Positions 5,099-12,490 of a DNA stretch of 23,931 nt are shown piece after piece. Position numbers and translations under genes: made by a program. The notes under the pieces are model-generated. The model saw nothing but the letters and a program-made list of their open reading frames with translations. It was not told the origin of the DNA and did not search any database. The stretch is from a virus. Where the stretch lies: the IMG/VR virus record IMGVR_UViG_3300022187_000236, positions 1 to 23,931 of that record; one strand, given 5' to 3'. Each line of letters opens with the position of its first letter. The first letter of the stretch is position 1.

Positions 5099-5635
5099 CT
5101 ATCCGTATTGCAGGGTAGAAATAGACTGACGTGCACCAGGCATATTGCTAGATGAATATGACTCAGGATCAATACCTTGCTGGAAACCAGGCATACCCAT
5201 GGCACCTGGTACAGCACCAAGGGCAACACCACCAAGACCGGCAGCGGCAGCAGATGCTGGAACCATACCCGCAGCTAAACCTTTGCTGATATTGCGTTCA
5301 GCTTGAGGGCCAACATTCATTTGTTCCAATGCATTTACAACATCAGCAGCTTTGCCAACAGCTCCTGCACGCACTTTGGATCCCTCAGGAAGATTGCGTC
5401 CAACGTTTCCAATAACATTGCCAGCAGGAATTACTGCTTTTTCTTGAATGGCAGAAAGCAACTGAGGCGAATATTTACCGGCAAGACGTGCACCCAATAA
5501 ACCACCGGCTGCACCAAGGCCACCAAGACCTGCAGCTAAGCCAGCAGAACCAGGATCTTCACCTTGAGAAAGGGCATACCCACCGGTTGCTAAACCAGCA
5601 GCGGCAGGTACACCATATTTAAGAGCGCCACGCAT
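5099..5635 (-). CDS. Gly/Ala-rich hydrophobic protein, 178 aa, between scaffold and capsid genes
   Basis: Residues 8-22, 30-53 and about 119-148 are Gly/Ala/Leu-rich segments with glycine-zipper spacing (AAGLGGLGAAGGLLGARLAG). Such segments can insert into or associate with membranes. The central part (about 55-118) is more polar. The gene lies 4 nt downstream of the scaffold-like gene and just before the major capsid gene. It resembles in composition the Gly-rich proteins at 15245-18617, so it may be another internal or ejected virion protein. No family is recognised. Confidence 0.7.
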   Translation of the reverse strand: MRGALKYGVPAAAGLATGGYALSQGEDPGSAGLAAGLGGLGAAGGLLGARLAGKYSPQLLSAIQEKAVIPAGNVIGNVGRNLPEGSKVRAGAVGKAADVVNALEQMNVGPQAERNISKGLAAGMVPASAAAAGLGGVALGAVPGAMGMPGFQQGIDPESYSSSNMPGARQSISTLQYG

Positions 5636-5639
5636 GGGA

Positions 5640-6611
5640 TCACTCCATCACAAACAGTTTGTTCGCCATTACATCAGGTGTAGCCTGGTTGATAACGCGC
5701 CAGGCGTTCTGAGGATCACGCTCCATGGTTGACTTGAAGCTTTCCCAGAAGTTCTGAGGTTGCTGTGGTGCAGCTGCAGCAGGAGGAGCGGGGAATTGTC
5801 CCAGGCCAGGATTCACAGCTTGGGTTGGATAGCCAACAGTTTCAAGCTGAGCTTCGTTTTCATAAACAGGATACGGACCTTCAGGACCAAAGAACTTGAG
5901 AGTGTAATCACTCAGAACATCAGGGTTGGTAAGGATCTCGTTATAAGCCAGATTTTCCTGATGCTCATTAACAGCGAAGTTGGCATAACCTTGCAAGGTG
6001 TCAGTAGCTTGGCTGCCCCAAGCAAGGGCGCTATCAAGAACGCTTTCCAGGTTTAGAGCGTACTGATTTAGAATTGCCGGAGCTTCGGTCCCGTACGCGT
6101 CCACCACCATCCGACTTTCCGGACTCCACCCCAGTACTTCCGCTACGTCCGCTAAGGAGCTGACTGAGTAAGTTTGGGAAGAGTTGCTGGAGGATGTCTG
6201 GTTTGTTGACCAGGTCTGCGGAACCGATTGTGGCGTAGCTTGGACGCTCGGTTGTCCGTAATTCGCCGGGGTATACTGAGTCGGATTGACCTGTTGCGAT
6301 TGTTGACCCTGGAACGGGGATGGCACCGGGCTCCCCAGCAGATTGACCACTTTGTTGAATGCCGTCTCCCAGGGGTTGCTCTGGGGCGCCACCGGTTGGG
6401 ATTGGGGGGCGTACTGAGTAGGGTTTGATTGGTAACTGGTAGTTCCCTGTGGTGCTACTTGAGGCACCGCTTGAGGGTAACTGGTTCCCACTTGATACTG
6501 AACCGGAGCTTGGGCCACCTGCTGTTGAGGAGCTGGTGCGACGTAGCTGCTCGGAGCGACCGCCGGTGCTTGGCTCATCTGTGGGGTCGATTGGACGGTA
6601 GCGTCCTGCAT
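5640..6611 (-). CDS. Probable capsid scaffolding protein, 323 aa
   Basis: Residues 1-150 are Pro/Gln/Ser-rich with two copies of NPTQY[AT]P. From about residue 150 the protein becomes acidic and helical (SLADVAEVLGW, LNLESVLDSALAWG, NEHQENLAYNEIL) and it ends with a basic-acidic helix (NFWESFKSTMERD). A disordered arm plus helical domain, encoded between portal and major capsid, is the usual place and look of a scaffold. The start at ATG 6611 is well supported by AAAAGGAG 7 nt upstream. Its first 192 codons overlap the last 192 codons of the portal in the +1 frame. The scaffold role is inferred from order and composition. Confidence 0.65.
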   Translation of the reverse strand: MQDATVQSTPQMSQAPAVAPSSYVAPAPQQQVAQAPVQYQVGTSYPQAVPQVAPQGTTSYQSNPTQYAPQSQPVAPQSNPWETAFNKVVNLLGSPVPSPFQGQQSQQVNPTQYTPANYGQPSVQATPQSVPQTWSTNQTSSSNSSQTYSVSSLADVAEVLGWSPESRMVVDAYGTEAPAILNQYALNLESVLDSALAWGSQATDTLQGYANFAVNEHQENLAYNEILTNPDVLSDYTLKFFGPEGPYPVYENEAQLETVGYPTQAVNPGLGQFPAPPAAAAPQQPQNFWESFKSTMERDPQNAWRVINQATPDVMANKLFVME

Positions 6612-8361
6612 AACTCATCTCCTTTTGTAATGCTTCTAAAGTGCGATACAGATATGGAGTTAAATCCAATTTGGGATCCGCTGCCATCGGTAAATCCGGT
6701 GCCTGCGGGTGGGGAGTCTGCATCATGCCCCCCACTAAACGAGCAAAGTGAGAGTATGCACCCTGCAACTCGTTTACCATTCTGAACGGGAACCCAGATA
6801 GCATCTCGGCCCGCTCCTCATCTGTTTTTGATGGGAAGAGGTACTTCAGTGCTTCTATACTATCAACACCTAATTCTTGTAAATTTCTTACAACAATAGA
6901 GTTGTTCAGAATGTCCTGCGTAGAATCTTCATACACAGGTCCCAGCCAGCGCCATTGTACCGTAATATCGCCATCTGGGATTAATCCCTTGACGCCGGGA
7001 GGTATCATTTGTGCCTCCACACAAGCCATCATTACTTTTTTAAGTTGCGTTTTATACATTTTTTCAGCTTCTTCATAAGCAGCTTGTTCTTCTGGTCCAA
7101 GCTCTCCCTCTGGTGGAATTGGTTTTTCAATTTGCGCAGCAACAGCAAGTGTGTCTCTGAACAGCTGCTCTTCTTGATAGATAATTAACTCAAAACAACG
7201 CGAAAGACCATGTTCATAGATTGCATTTGCTTTTTTCTTAGATGTTGCCGAAACTCGTCCAAATAATGATTTATATTCCGTAGCAGTAACACCAGCACTG
7301 ATAGATAACTCGTCAACACCACCTAATGCAGTGCGAATTTCTTCTCGGTACTGCCGTACAAACGCATTCTGGTCACCACTAATGGCATCTGGGACGATAT
7401 ACCCAACTCGATCGTTCGGTTCCAGGTTTGCAATGACTCTTGGCACCCGAATCTGCCCATCAACACCGCGAGATACTGGATCTTGCTTAAATGTTGACCG
7501 GCTAAGCCCCATGGGACTGGTAAATCCAGAGTTTGCAGCAATAGATGGGCGCTGTACACCGGTATCGCCACCGATATCAATAAGATCAGTCTTGGGACGG
7601 GAAGAAAGAAGGGTAGGATTACCAAAAAATTGCAGATTCTTCCGCATGTTGCGGACTAATTCGTCATGAATAACAATGTGATTGGCAACTGAGTCAAAAT
7701 CACCGCTGCCTTCCATTGAAAATCCCTTGGGATTATTAAAAATTTCCACACAAGGGATAAATTTTAACGTGTTTTTAAATGTTTTAGTCTTGCCAGGGAT
7801 CGTGTAGTTGACATTATCAAAAGACATTTCTCCTTCCGAGTGCGTTTCCTCAATTACATCTTTTTTGATGGACAATCGGATGTATCGCTTTGCCCCCTGG
7901 GACTCAGTATTGCCGTATCCAGTCAAATCTGCGGAATTAATTTCCTGATTAAACCCATTGCCACGTTTGACTTTATAGCTATAGATGATTACGACTTCCT
8001 CTAATTCTCCATCGGTATTGTAATAGGAGCGATATTCATGAGAACGAAAGTAATAAAGACGGTAGTTCGCATCCGTTGGACGGATGTAAAACATTCCTTT
8101 ACCGTCACAAAGAAAGTAATCCCAGATGGAATCAAGTCGAGTATCTAATTTGTTATATTTAGCAACTTTATCAATAAAATCTTTACGTTGGTTACCAAAG
8201 TTGTCTTGAGCGGGAAAAAATTCAACACCCTGACGGATGCCAAACAATTTCATCTGAGCGATATGAGACGCAACAATGCCTGTGTCAACGCCAGCGCTAC
8301 CATCACGCTCGATGTAAGCGTCAATAATTTCTTTAAGACGGGCTTTGACGTTGCTGGACAT
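6034..8361 (-). CDS. Portal protein with long disordered C-terminal tail
   Basis: The 775-aa protein forms the dodecameric DNA gateway at one capsid vertex and docks TerL. Evidence is the position between the terminase block and scaffold/capsid, plus a core resembling podovirus-type portals: Tyr/Arg-rich N-terminal strands (90-130), a central acidic/aromatic region, and the segment ISAGVTATEYKSLFGRVSAT (354-373) followed by long helices (374-455). The recognisable fold ends near residue 585. Residues 584-775 are Ser/Gly/Pro/Thr-rich with one short helix (ILQQLFPNLLSQLLSG) and a basic end (VRSKPGKRS). That tail coincides exactly with the overlap with the scaffold gene, so it may have arisen by overprinting. 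The start overlaps the previous stop as TAATG at 8361. Confidence 0.85.
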   Translation of the reverse strand: MSSNVKARLKEIIDAYIERDGSAGVDTGIVASHIAQMKLFGIRQGVEFFPAQDNFGNQRKDFIDKVAKYNKLDTRLDSIWDYFLCDGKGMFYIRPTDANYRLYYFRSHEYRSYYNTDGELEEVVIIYSYKVKRGNGFNQEINSADLTGYGNTESQGAKRYIRLSIKKDVIEETHSEGEMSFDNVNYTIPGKTKTFKNTLKFIPCVEIFNNPKGFSMEGSGDFDSVANHIVIHDELVRNMRKNLQFFGNPTLLSSRPKTDLIDIGGDTGVQRPSIAANSGFTSPMGLSRSTFKQDPVSRGVDGQIRVPRVIANLEPNDRVGYIVPDAISGDQNAFVRQYREEIRTALGGVDELSISAGVTATEYKSLFGRVSATSKKKANAIYEHGLSRCFELIIYQEEQLFRDTLAVAAQIEKPIPPEGELGPEEQAAYEEAEKMYKTQLKKVMMACVEAQMIPPGVKGLIPDGDITVQWRWLGPVYEDSTQDILNNSIVVRNLQELGVDSIEALKYLFPSKTDEERAEMLSGFPFRMVNELQGAYSHFARLVGGMMQTPHPQAPDLPMAADPKLDLTPYLYRTLEALQKEMSYAGRYRPIDPTDEPSTGGRSEQLRRTSSSTAGGPSSGSVSSGNQLPSSGASSSTTGNYQLPIKPYSVRPPIPTGGAPEQPLGDGIQQSGQSAGEPGAIPVPGSTIATGQSDSVYPGELRTTERPSYATIGSADLVNKPDILQQLFPNLLSQLLSGRSGSTGVESGKSDGGGRVRDRSSGNSKSVRSKPGKRS

Positions 8362-8579
8362 TAACTATTTTTCTTTTTTTCTTTGTACATCTTAGCAGAC
8401 CTGGCAGCTTTACCAGCTTTTTTAGCTTTTTCTGTATTAGAAACAAACTGTTTTCCTTTCCTGCTACCCTCTCGTTTCTTGCGATCCGTTTCCTCCCTCT
8501 CATCTTTAGACAATGAGGCCCAGGCCTTCTCTGGGAGATAGCGTTTAGTATACCCTTTTTGAATTGCTTTATCTGTCAT
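8361..8579 (-). CDS. Small basic protein resembling the C-terminal part of DUF5872-type proteins
   Basis: The 72-aa protein is strongly basic. Residues about 12-52 (TKRYLPEKAWASLSKDER, then KKREGSRKGKQFVSNTEKAKK) match, from memory, a motif that follows the DUF5872 domain in marine phage and giant-virus proteins (YLP..A...L...E...T..KKR.G...GKQF). No function is established for that family; the charge suggests nucleic-acid or virion packing. It sits immediately before the portal gene (TAATG overlap). The DUF5872-like half itself is encoded two genes upstream at 8835-9119. Confidence 0.65.
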   Translation of the reverse strand: MTDKAIQKGYTKRYLPEKAWASLSKDEREETDRKKREGSRKGKQFVSNTEKAKKAGKAARSAKMYKEKKKNS

Positions 8580-9630: not shown

Positions 9631-10004
9631 CGTAACAATTTTTCAATCATCCTATCAAGTTTAGTATTAATTTCCTTAAAATGATCATGCATCTGTTGAA
9701 TTTCTCTAAGAAAGTCAACTTTCAACACGTATTCAATTGGCATACGTTTGACCTGCTCTTCGACTTCGTGGAGTCTCATTTCTGAATCTCGTAAGCGCTC
9801 ATGAGCTTGTTTGACACGTTCGTGAGAGCGGGCCAATACTTTTGAAGCAACCCAGCCGCCGCCAGTAACGGAGCTGATTACGCAGGTCAAAACCAAAGCA
9901 ATGTACTCTGGTCCCACGGCAAATAAATCTTTTGTTACCTTTATTTTAAATCTTAGTAATCCACCTGAAGCTTGCCGCGTTTCATAAGACCATTTATTAA
10001 CCAA
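9627..10004 (-). CDS. Membrane-anchored coiled-coil protein (holin- or spanin-like candidate)
   Basis: Counting from TTG 10004, residues about 31-56 (EYIALVLTCVISSVTGGGWV) form one hydrophobic segment. Residues 57-125 form a heptad-rich, charged helix (SHERVKQAHERLRDSEMRLH) ending in LDRMIEKLLR. One membrane anchor plus a coiled coil beside the terminase gene recalls holins or spanin-type proteins, but no signature proves it. The start is uncertain. TTG 10004 overlaps terL by 52 nt and has no Shine-Dalgarno. GTG 9917 gives 96 aa beginning just before the membrane segment, with the nearest AAGG about 19 nt away. The stop overlaps the AbrB-like start by 4 nt. Confidence 0.6.
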   Translation of the reverse strand: MVNKWSYETRQASGGLLRFKIKVTKDLFAVGPEYIALVLTCVISSVTGGGWVASKVLARSHERVKQAHERLRDSEMRLHEVEEQVKRMPIEYVLKVDFLREIQQMHDHFKEINTKLDRMIEKLLR

Positions 10005-12490
10005 ACGAGAGCGTCAACGCAGTCGTCATGGGAACTTACGCCAAAATTTGTCATCTCTTCAAATAAAACAGTAAAGTTTCTGTAACGATTAAAAATAACC
10101 TTTCGATCCTCGAAAAGTCCCATCACTCCACGGAACCTGGCAAGTTTATCTGCACGGAATCCTTTGATCGCATGCCATACCAGGTTATATAAATTTTCAT
10201 TATTTAAACAGATTCTCTTGAAATCAGCTTCAAGTGAAGCCTGGTACGCAACAGCTTCTGAGTAGATGTCGCAGGTAGAGAAGGTCGGGAAGTAGTTGTC
10301 ATTCGCATCTTTACCAATAACGGACCAGTCGTATAGCAGTTCTTTTAAGGCATCAAGTTTCTCAAGATTGCCCATTGCTCGCATACGTCTGTAATCAATG
10401 ATGTGGATCTTATCGCCAATCCTTCCGCCAAGAACAAATACTGTGTAATCGTTTTTCTCTTTTGTACCAGCGGATAGATCCACTCCAACGCCAAGGGTAT
10501 CGAATTCAGTTGCGATCTCAGCCTTAACAAGCAGCTCTGGTGCCAGAGATAGCTCATTCTGCCTGACGATTTGATTCATGTACTGGAAAGAGAAAGCAAT
10601 AGGTGCTTGCCGTTTCTTTTCTTTCAAGTATTCCAGGGACCACATCTCAGGCCAGTAAGATTCCTCTTCACCTGTTTTCTCATTGTTTTGGATTGCTGAC
10701 AATACAAGCTGCATCCAATTGTTTTGCGGGCAGAAAGTTGTTGCGTGAATATCGTCATGCCTGAATCTTGTGCCAAGACATATTGCCCTACCACCTTCAA
10801 ACATTGTTGGAGAGATAACTGCATTCCAGTTATCCTGCATTGTTTTACGTATATCGGGGTTGCCAATATCTGCAGAGCTCTTGATCGGGTCGTCAATTAT
10901 ACAGTTACCTACATTTAAGCCGTTTGCAATAAAATTATGACTCATGTGATGTACTTCAAGATCATAAACATACTCCGCTCGATCGCTAAAGAACTCAACT
11001 CGGGAAATGGACTCAGCCTTCCAGCTTTGTCCGTTACTTGATGATGTGCCACATGGCACTGACGACACAATGTTATTAAATTTTGAGGGATATTGTTTGT
11101 CTTTTTGTGGTCGATATGATGAACACAAAGATTGGTTCGTAGGGAACCATTTTTTAACTTCTGTTTTTTCTCCTTTGTACCACAACCTACACAAGTTAAA
11201 TTGTCCCTTTGAAGAATCAAAGGGCGAATTTTTTTGAAATCGTTTGTCGAGCAACCGTGTTGATAATTGCTGTTTCCGCATCCCTTCATCTTTTTCGAAT
11301 GAAGTTTGTTGGCACAATCCCGTGAGCAACACTTGGTTGTGTGACTGATTGGCTTGAACGCCTTCTGACAAAACAAACATTTTTTCATTGAAAGTGTTTG
11401 CCTTGATGCCCCAGCACATTGACGGCTGCAGTGTATCGCGGGAAAGTTTTTGCTTAAATACTGAGATAAACGGCTGGACACTAGGGAGAATTTTTGGTTG
11501 CAAATTGGGCAAACTAGATTTACCAGAAATGACTGAGTGGTTTTGTAACAGTTTTCGCAAATCCGTTGTGTGTGTTTCTTTTGGTTTCCGCACGCAAGGC
11601 AAGACTTGATCTTCCAGCTTTCCGGATAGCTTGACAATGGCATCCCCTTTACTAAGATCTCCCGCCCTTTTTTGCCTTCCTTCTTTCGTAATAAAAGGGT
11701 GCTCGGGAGTTGCTGAAATACAACCTCCACTGTTTGTTGTAATTTCAACAATTCCTTTGGTATAACGCCTTGTAACTGCTCCCACTTTGCACCAATTAAT
11801 TTGATCTGTGATGTGGTTTCTTGTGGCAACACGGTAAGCCTCTGGATTTTTATAAATGGAAGCAATTGGAACTTGCCCTTGATCAGTATACACCAAAGTA
11901 TCGCCAGTAAAGCATAAATGGGATCGCTTAGAGGTAACTGAACCTTTCAGGCCTGCAGCGCAGAGAGTAAACTGTTCTTCACCTGTAGTATCAATTCCTG
12001 CAAACTTGTGATCAATAGACCAGTACTCATTACTTGTTACATTCTTGAGTAAGCGAACAGACGGAAACACGTTTTGATATTTTTTGCTATCAATAATACG
12101 TTTGATAGTTGCAGATTTAGATCTTGCAATATCAACTGTGTAAGACAAGTAAAGAATTTGAAGGGGTTTCTTTGCTGTTGTATGTACACCAATTGCCCAT
12201 GCAGTGAATAAACCCAACACGGTACTTTTGGCCGACCCCCTGGGACCGAGTAGATCAATATTCGGTCCAGCAATTTTTACAAGACAATCAGTATCTTCGT
12301 TTGTTACTAATTGCTTATGCCATTCTCTATGGTGATTTGCTGGTGGCTTATCCGCTACGTATTCACAAAAAAAACCAAAGTCTTCTCTTGCACGCTCCAG
12401 GAGGTCTTCATTCTTGCTTTTGCGGATCTTGTGCTTTTGAATAGCAGCCTTTGCATTTCGCCTGTAAGCAAGATGAAGGTGAGAAGGCAC
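9953..12490 (-). CDS. terL: Terminase large subunit interrupted by an intein
   Basis: The 845-aa precursor is the packaging ATPase/nuclease. Walker A is GPRGSAKST (82-90). Walker B is CIIDD (530-534), directly after the intein; coupling-type GTRFRHDD is at 573-580. The RuvC-like nuclease follows, with DLSAG (671), a central acidic cluster near DIYSE (741-745) and HDDCVDAL (821-828). Removing residues 193-529 leaves about 508 aa, a normal TerL length, and joins SHL to CIIDDP. The start is GTG 12490 with no clear Shine-Dalgarno and no in-frame ATG nearby. The gene lies after TerS and three small ORFs and before portal, scaffold and capsid. The protein must splice to be active because Walker A and Walker B are on different exteins. 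Confidence 0.93.
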   Translation of the reverse strand: MPSHLHLAYRRNAKAAIQKHKIRKSKNEDLLERAREDFGFFCEYVADKPPANHHREWHKQLVTNEDTDCLVKIAGPNIDLLGPRGSAKSTVLGLFTAWAIGVHTTAKKPLQILYLSYTVDIARSKSATIKRIIDSKKYQNVFPSVRLLKNVTSNEYWSIDHKFAGIDTTGEEQFTLCAAGLKGSVTSKRSHLCFTGDTLVYTDQGQVPIASIYKNPEAYRVATRNHITDQINWCKVGAVTRRYTKGIVEITTNSGGCISATPEHPFITKEGRQKRAGDLSKGDAIVKLSGKLEDQVLPCVRKPKETHTTDLRKLLQNHSVISGKSSLPNLQPKILPSVQPFISVFKQKLSRDTLQPSMCWGIKANTFNEKMFVLSEGVQANQSHNQVLLTGLCQQTSFEKDEGMRKQQLSTRLLDKRFQKNSPFDSSKGQFNLCRLWYKGEKTEVKKWFPTNQSLCSSYRPQKDKQYPSKFNNIVSSVPCGTSSSNGQSWKAESISRVEFFSDRAEYVYDLEVHHMSHNFIANGLNVGNCIIDDPIKSSADIGNPDIRKTMQDNWNAVISPTMFEGGRAICLGTRFRHDDIHATTFCPQNNWMQLVLSAIQNNEKTGEEESYWPEMWSLEYLKEKKRQAPIAFSFQYMNQIVRQNELSLAPELLVKAEIATEFDTLGVGVDLSAGTKEKNDYTVFVLGGRIGDKIHIIDYRRMRAMGNLEKLDALKELLYDWSVIGKDANDNYFPTFSTCDIYSEAVAYQASLEADFKRICLNNENLYNLVWHAIKGFRADKLARFRGVMGLFEDRKVIFNRYRNFTVLFEEMTNFGVSSHDDCVDALVWLINGLMKRGKLQVDY
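10904..11914 (-). mobile_element. Intein within TerL, 337 aa
   Basis: The intein is TerL residues 193-529. Block A is CFTGDTLVYT (Cys1 at 193), block B is SATPEHPFIT (about 259-268, Thr and His present), block F is YVYDLEVHHMSHNF (507-520) and block G is FIANGLNVGN (520-529), followed by Cys+1 at 530. Cys1, block B Thr/His, terminal Asn and Cys+1 are all present, so splicing is plausible. The penultimate residue is Gly instead of the usual His. Insertion is immediately before Walker B, a highly conserved homing site. The in-frame segment between blocks B and F has no homing-endonuclease signature and is Ser/Gln/Lys/Asn-rich. The endonuclease is encoded across the same bases in another frame. 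Confidence 0.9.
10942..11643 (-). CDS. HNH homing endonuclease nested in the intein in the +1 frame
   Basis: From ATG 11643 this frame encodes 233 aa. Zinc-finger-like Cys pairs recur: CLACGN/CENC (15-32), CPICNQ/CSRQC (45-76), CLFCQK/CCSRDC (89-110). An HNH domain follows: CVGC (151-154), LCVHHIDHKKTNNIPQNLI (172-190) and CRQCHVAHH (193-201), supplying the His-His, Asn and His catalytic residues plus the zinc site. HNH enzymes cut DNA and drive homing. The gene lies within TerL codons 283-517, exactly where an intein endonuclease domain belongs, but offset by one base. A GGAG lies 15 nt upstream of the ATG and an AGGGG abuts it. The frame is also open upstream to TTG 11865, but that part merely re-reads intein blocks A/B. 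Expression is unproven. Confidence 0.85.
   Translation of the reverse strand: MPLSSYPESWKIKSCLACGNQKKHTQRICENCYKTTQSFLVNLVCPICNQKFSLVSSRLSQYLSKNFPAIHCSRQCAGASRQTLSMKKCLFCQKAFKPISHTTKCCSRDCANKLHSKKMKGCGNSNYQHGCSTNDFKKIRPLILQRDNLTCVGCGTKEKKQKLKNGSLRTNLCVHHIDHKKTNNIPQNLITLCRQCHVAHHQVTDKAGRLSPFPELSSLAIERSMFMILKYIT

Follow-up and report, generated by a model that had tools for sequence, protein, structure and literature searches.

A 578-nt overlap between a portal gene and a probable scaffold gene appears to be selected in both frames across the Synechococcus phage S-EIV1 lineage

The lambda lysis genes Rz and Rz1 form an out-of-frame overlap of two genes of one pathway in a tailed phage, and in this they resemble the portal/scaffold-like pair described here, but they are shorter, act in lysis and not in capsid assembly, and have one gene nested in the other. 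The overprinted virus genes described in PMC8227390 likewise use one stretch in two frames with both frames selected, and the present pair differs from them in consisting of a portal gene and a probable scaffold gene of a tailed dsDNA phage. Viral +1 overlaps were reported to have a median length of 14 nt with an interquartile range of 8-26 nt (PMC8903798), against 578 nt for the overlap here. A further long out-of-frame overlap in a phage gene is the ShiLan domain, an out-of-frame HNH insert of phage methylases (PMC11855218); the ShiLan HNH is mobile and patchy, whereas the portal/scaffold overlap is fixed in its lineage with two selected frames. In phage P22, a portal ring with 60-300 scaffold molecules makes up the nucleation complex, and this cooperation of portal and scaffold in procapsid nucleation is the partnership proposed here. 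The P22 portal residues that bind scaffold are described in the same source as not yet identified, and its passages on P22 mention no gene overlap, unlike the situation here (PMC9320234). While overprinted genes are already known, no report of a portal/scaffold dual-coding overlap was found by title or abstract start among the open-licence papers listed.

The window, which is the whole stretch of DNA analysed (23,931 nt, IMG/VR record IMGVR_UViG_3300022187_000236), belongs to the lineage of Synechococcus phage S-EIV1, a widespread group of cyanobacterial viruses. The genes of concern follow each other in the order portal, scaffold-like ORF, small ORF and major capsid protein (Table 1). We consider it likely from the sequence comparisons below that the 578-nt stretch encodes two selected segments, namely a mostly disordered portal tail and the Pro/Gln-rich arm of a probable scaffold. 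The scaffold-like ORF lies in the +1 frame relative to the portal gene, and the first letter of its start ATG is the second base of portal codon 584. The two ORFs, the length of their overlap, the start at portal residue 584 and the 192-residue Ser/Gly/Pro-rich portal tail were exactly as the first-pass annotation had given them, and in the scaffold arm that it called Pro/Gln-rich, Pro and Gln together made up 55 of 191 residues and charged residues just 10. The strong scaffold start signal that it reported was also recovered, as AAAAGGAG upstream of the ATG in the window, with AGGAGATG invariant in the relatives. Furthermore, the overlap was richer in G and C than its flanks, as had been noted: GC per 300-nt window was 0.54-0.60 for starts 6000-6500, compared with 0.37-0.50 for starts 6600-8500 and 0.49-0.51 for starts 5600-5900. 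The open overlap exceeds chance, since shuffling the synonymous codons of the scaffold arm in 13 of 75 complete genomes gave on average 1.9-4.7 portal-frame stops while none was observed in any of the 13 (the stop-free share of the shuffles was 0.002-0.136).

Table 1. Coordinates in the window of the portal and scaffold-like genes, their overlap and neighbouring features
Feature	Position	Strand	Description
Portal gene	6034-8361	minus	ORF, 775 aa
Scaffold-like gene	5640-6611	minus	ORF, 323 aa; disordered arm, helix 80-93, helical C-terminal half (predicted)
Dual-coding stretch	6034-6611	minus	578 nt; portal residues 584-775 and scaffold-like residues 1-192
Single-frame portal part (core), residues 1-583	6612-8361	minus	Predicted secondary structure to residue 583
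Single-frame C-terminal scaffold-like part	5640-6033	minus	4-fold divergence 0.286, which is 0.86 of the core rate
Ribosome-binding stretch AAAAGGAGATG of the scaffold-like gene, within the portal gene	6616-6626	minus	
Portal tail motif QLPIKPYSVRPPIP, residues 642-655	6397-6438	minus	QLPIxPxSxRPPIP in relatives; consensus of 59 relatives
Portal tail motif IGSADLVNKPDILQQLFPNLL, residues 712-732	6166-6228	minus	Consensus; holds the only predicted helices of the tail
Scaffold arm motif NPWETAFNKVVNLL, residues 79-92	6336-6377	minus	Consensus NPWESAFNKVVNLL; predicted helix 80-93
Small Gly/Ala-rich ORF, 178 aa	5099-5635	minus	Between scaffold-like and capsid genes; rival scaffold candidate
Major capsid protein gene, 387 aa	3830-4993	minus	phrog_1357 major head protein, E 5.3e-17

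The product of the larger ORF is a phage portal protein, as seen from both sequence and fold matches. It matches phrog_20475 over residues 4-735 (E 1.1e-273) and, weakly, phrog_64 ‘portal protein’ (E 1.3e-4). A low-confidence AlphaFold model of the protein (mean pLDDT 41) gave 26 PDB matches at E<=0.001 in Foldseek, all of them portal or portal-containing tail entries by title. The same low-confidence model gave VIA Z scores of 5.6-7.5 (under 8), mostly over model residues 45-464, and the titles of the 50 VIA matches listed all name a phage portal, connector, neck, vertex, tail or whole particle. The first-pass annotation placed the end of the portal fold near residue 585, which roughly holds in that the last core helix of the model spans residues 568-583; beyond it the model is coil except for two short helices (721-727 and 731-736). 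The tail is thus predicted to be mostly disordered, as had been suggested. Its description as low complexity agrees with its composition, but the tail is not unconstrained and carries conserved motifs. For example, scaffold-silent sites in portal residues 648-663 change at a rate of only 0.02 (4/211), and those in residues 712-727 change at 0.06. Mean identity is lower for the portal tail (0.63) than for the overlapping part of the scaffold-like protein (0.69). At the other end of the portal gene, its start codon and the stop codon of the gene before it overlap (TAATG, 8359-8363), and the window shows no clear Shine-Dalgarno sequence there, unlike the strong one of the scaffold-like gene, and some relatives seem to begin the portal at GTG.

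The second protein was named scaffold-like from the position of its gene between the portal and capsid genes, and it is from this gene order that we regard it as probably a capsid scaffold. Comparisons with PHROG, Pfam, PDB and known folds gave nothing of note for it, which says little given how quickly scaffolds diverge and the poor quality of the model (mean pLDDT 49, with a helix at 177-228). Within portal residues 664-679, a segment lying over part of the scaffold arm motif, the portal-silent rate was 1/311. In one relative (L035), a short helical stretch, YADYAVNAHNLLAGYADFAVAEH, was observed to be tandemly duplicated in the C-terminal half of the scaffold-like protein. The small Gly/Ala-rich ORF that follows likewise gave no family match of note, and its product may itself be the scaffold, or else an internal protein.

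Relatives were collected in two sets. The first set comprised 205 loci including the window, S-EIV1 and one MAG contig, of which at least 113 were distinct and complete (nine truncated loci were dropped and the rest were duplicates). The second set of 187 loci (L212-L398) added at least 90 further distinct complete loci, leaving out 56 repeats or members of the first set, 14 with short or truncated cores, 26 truncated loci and one with broken frames (L219). Loci entered the first set if tblastn matched them to the second protein, and the second set if they had an ATG at a fixed offset; only L108, which is cut off before the scaffold, and the frame-shifted L219 failed these conditions among the matches listed. 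Scans for loci went outward from L079, L112 and L237 and, like the pattern scan described below, all stayed within the lineage, among the matches listed. The overlap was kept with both frames open in all 203 distinct complete relatives among the matches listed, and no relative lacking it was found among these. Its length ranged from 506 to 644 nt in the first set and from 518 to 692 nt in the second. Among the same 203 relatives, again within the matches listed, AGGAGATG was invariant with the ATG at the same place, and the full AAAAGGAGATG was present in 190. A pattern scan that was not ranked by similarity found at least 118 loci, 96 of which were complete with the overlap; the remainder comprised ten that included the portal stop but had a cut-off scaffold gene, ten with both frames open to the contig end, one that was too short and one that was broken. 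L219 has no open overlap frames, and as its several frame shifts also lie outside the overlap it was taken as a sequence error. In L267, a truncated contig and one of the ten with a portal stop but a cut-off scaffold gene, the portal stops early, 99 codons past the motif, leaving an overlap of 185 nt that ends about 9 nt from the contig end; this is probably a contig-end artefact and is still the sole contrary case. Both loci probably reflect errors of sequence or assembly.

The only isolate with a clear portal relative among the matches listed is S-EIV1 (KJ410740.1), whose portal core is 78% identical to that of the window. It has the same gene order, with a portal of 767 aa, a scaffold-like ORF of 325 aa and an overlap of 554 nt. 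The record conceals this overlap, since its annotation of the second gene covers only the part past the portal stop, at 59863-60264 (133 aa). The capsid gene of S-EIV1 also appears to be mis-annotated (L002, KJ410740.1 60784-62010); the 387-aa homologue, at 60859-62007 on the plus strand, is overlaid in the record by one minus-strand CDS and a short plus-strand one.

Divergence at 4-fold sites was measured over 40 phylogenetically independent pairs of the first set with the portal core as the neutral yardstick. The core diverged at 0.334 and the single-frame scaffold part at nearly the same rate (Table 1), while within the overlap scaffold-silent sites diverged at 0.140 (0.42 of the core, 0.36-0.48) and portal-silent sites at 0.056 (0.17 of the core, 0.14-0.20). 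Synonymous suppression in both frames had been proposed beforehand as a check on dual coding, and it was observed. The scaffold-silent changes were then divided by their effect on the portal, with expectations taken from the 4-fold exchanges of the core and conservative defined as a BLOSUM62 score of at least 0. Changes silent in the portal too were not reduced (17 observed against 13.6 expected, 1.25), whereas conservative changes were reduced (276 against 490.7, 0.56), radical changes more so (96 against 600.4, 0.16) and stops were absent (0 against 111.2). The result was repeated with 35 pairs from the 90 other loci, where the ratios were 0.99 for silent (12/12.1), 0.66 for conservative (254/383.0), 0.18 for radical (78/433.0) and zero for stop changes (0/82.3), and the divergences were 0.332 for the core, 0.151 for scaffold-silent and 0.061 for portal-silent sites of the overlap.

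As a control we used a second long dual-coding overlap of the window, at 10942-11865 on the minus strand, which lies 3-4 kb upstream inside TerL (9953-12490, minus). TerL contains an intein (PF14890, residues 206-526), and the insert overlaps a 307-aa ORF in the +1 frame with an HNH domain (PF01844, E 1.4e-4). Among the matches listed, the insertion of about 1011 nt was present in three and absent in 72 of the 75 distinct relatives with both TerL halves, and the HNH frame was found in each of the three insertions with 64-100% identity. HNH-frame silent sites were observed to change near the neutral rate and intein-frame ones were not, which indicates that the HNH frame is the selected one. Intein-frame changes over the HNH gene occurred close to expectation in the silent (3/2.7), conservative (40/35.6, 1.12) and radical (23/25.5, 0.90) classes, with stops at 0/11.4; these counts come from three pairs among three sequences and are not independent. 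A frame that is merely open, with radical changes at 0.90, therefore differs clearly from the portal tail with 0.16-0.18. This HNH is akin to the out-of-frame HNH of PMC11855218 but sits within a recognisable intein. One relative (L004, IMGVR_UViG_3300025687_001353) is 99.5-99.7% identical to the window over the portal core and scaffold and has no TerL intein, which suggests that the intein was recently gained or lost.

The graded tolerance by portal effect, together with this control, argues that the portal tail is a selected protein segment. With both frames open in all complete relatives and purifying selection seen in each, the dual coding proposed in the first-pass annotation is upheld; judged from the substitution patterns, the two genes are a functional overlapping pair under protein-level purifying selection in both frames, which is stronger on the scaffold frame. 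The constraint appears to be split in part along the overlap, with the motifs of each frame located where the other is loose, as the silent rates of the two frames oppose each other. As an example, in portal residues 648-663 and 712-727, where scaffold-silent rates are low, the portal-silent rates are 0.10 and 0.14, while in residues 664-679 and 760-775 scaffold-silent rates are 0.17 and 0.18 and portal-silent rates are 0.00 in both. The two rates anti-correlate in 8-codon windows (rho -0.63, p 0.0014) and 12-codon windows (rho -0.55, p 0.036), and the correlation has the same sign without significance at 16 and 24 codons. Plain amino-acid variability of the two frames shows a positive correlation (rho 0.55), as expected from shared nucleotides.

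The overlap had been attributed to the loss of an earlier portal stop, for which we found no support: none of the 203 distinct complete relatives among the matches listed stops near residue 585. A tblastn search of the portal core (E up to 10) against 50,697 phage records found no portal homologue outside the lineage and returned only S-EIV1; a tblastn search of the capsid protein against the same phage records likewise found S-EIV1 as the only relative, with three weak matches at E 0.2-0.5 being ignored. The portals (one putative) of distant phages reached via TerL gave no profile match, and the genome contigs yielded one phage contig (L140). In 105 of 113 genomes the portal tail resembled the remainder of these genes more closely in codon usage than the scaffold arm did, and under the codon-usage criterion for the newer of two overlapping frames as given in PMC8227390 this would make the scaffold arm the newer frame. 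We therefore lean, weakly, towards a scaffold arm younger than the portal tail; the lean is weak because the codon usage of both is atypical, being on average below the uniform expectation.

Several other explanations of the overlap were considered. The portal tail might be a non-functional read-through whose frame stays open because a stop or frameshift is harmful, with the scaffold arm alone selected. The low complexity and mostly predicted disorder of the tail would fit this, as would the stronger constraint on the scaffold frame, but among scaffold-silent changes those radical for the portal fall to 0.16-0.18 and those conservative for it to 0.56-0.66, with both-silent changes at 0.99-1.25, the mainly-open intein frame shows no such reduction (radical 0.90, conservative 1.12), and the QLPIxPxSxRPPIP and IGSADL...QLFPN motifs recur across the relatives, making this reading very unlikely. 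We give slightly less credence still to an RNA structure or packaging signal as the cause of the suppression. Suppression of silent sites alone cannot separate such a signal from two proteins, and the first 16 codons past the start signal are almost invariant; against this, changes silent in both frames are unsuppressed in both sets, although their numbers are small (17 against 13.6 and 12 against 12.1 expected), and tolerance is graded by amino-acid effect. Least probable of all is a scaffold-like protein that begins after the portal stop with no dual coding, as the 133-aa GenBank homologue annotated at 59863-60264 of KJ410740.1 would have it. The full S-EIV1 ORF begins inside the portal gene, all 203 relatives among the matches listed share the same upstream start signal, changes that are silent in the portal but alter the scaffold arm are reduced to 0.17, and the window has Val and not Met where the short S-EIV1 ORF begins.

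Two further explanations accept the overlap and differ on its products. Any +1 or -2 shift of the ribosome within the overlap would join both proteins, and the internal Shine-Dalgarno-like stretch could promote such shifting, giving some portal-scaffold fusion that ties scaffold to the portal vertex; as the conserved ATG and its start signal already account for expression with no shift, we think this highly improbable. A good deal more weight, though still well short of an even chance, is given to real dual coding in which the second protein is another head protein, either minor structural or internal, and the 178-aa ORF or an unseen gene provides the scaffold. A Pro/Gln-rich arm is unusual for a scaffold, the protein has no family or fold match, and a further ORF lies between its gene and the capsid gene. 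The gene sits immediately behind the portal gene and ahead of the capsid gene, which speaks for a scaffold, and the long helix and disordered arm of the low-confidence model are compatible with one.

The second protein has a dedicated start, with a strong ribosome-binding site of its own within the portal gene. Taking the scaffold reading, this internal start may allow many scaffold copies to be made per portal copy, which would suit a protein needed beyond the 12 copies of the portal. Portal C-termini face the capsid interior, which is also the place of the scaffold, and together with the conserved motifs in the disordered tail this would place the tail to meet scaffold, capsid or internal proteins. 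The tail most likely acts as a flexible arm that presents its short conserved motifs to such proteins, and would do so as the portal either nucleates the procapsid or is built into it. The shared DNA would keep portal tail and scaffold arm inherited together. The earlier suggestion of a physical link between portal and scaffold is plausible; that the disordered tail itself binds the scaffold arm or its folded part, the two proteins being physical partners, is a more tentative proposal to which we assign rather low odds.

Same-strand out-of-frame overlaps in viruses usually span a few bases, and here about 500-690 nt of two head genes overlap throughout a large lineage with selection measured on both frames. 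In such genomes gene callers can hide half a protein, as in the S-EIV1 record. The portal tail is marked as a selected part relevant to the meeting of portal and scaffold, which is described as unresolved for P22 in the passages of PMC9320234. If the two proteins are indeed partners, one stretch of DNA would encode both halves of the contact that starts assembly with one portal vertex per capsid.
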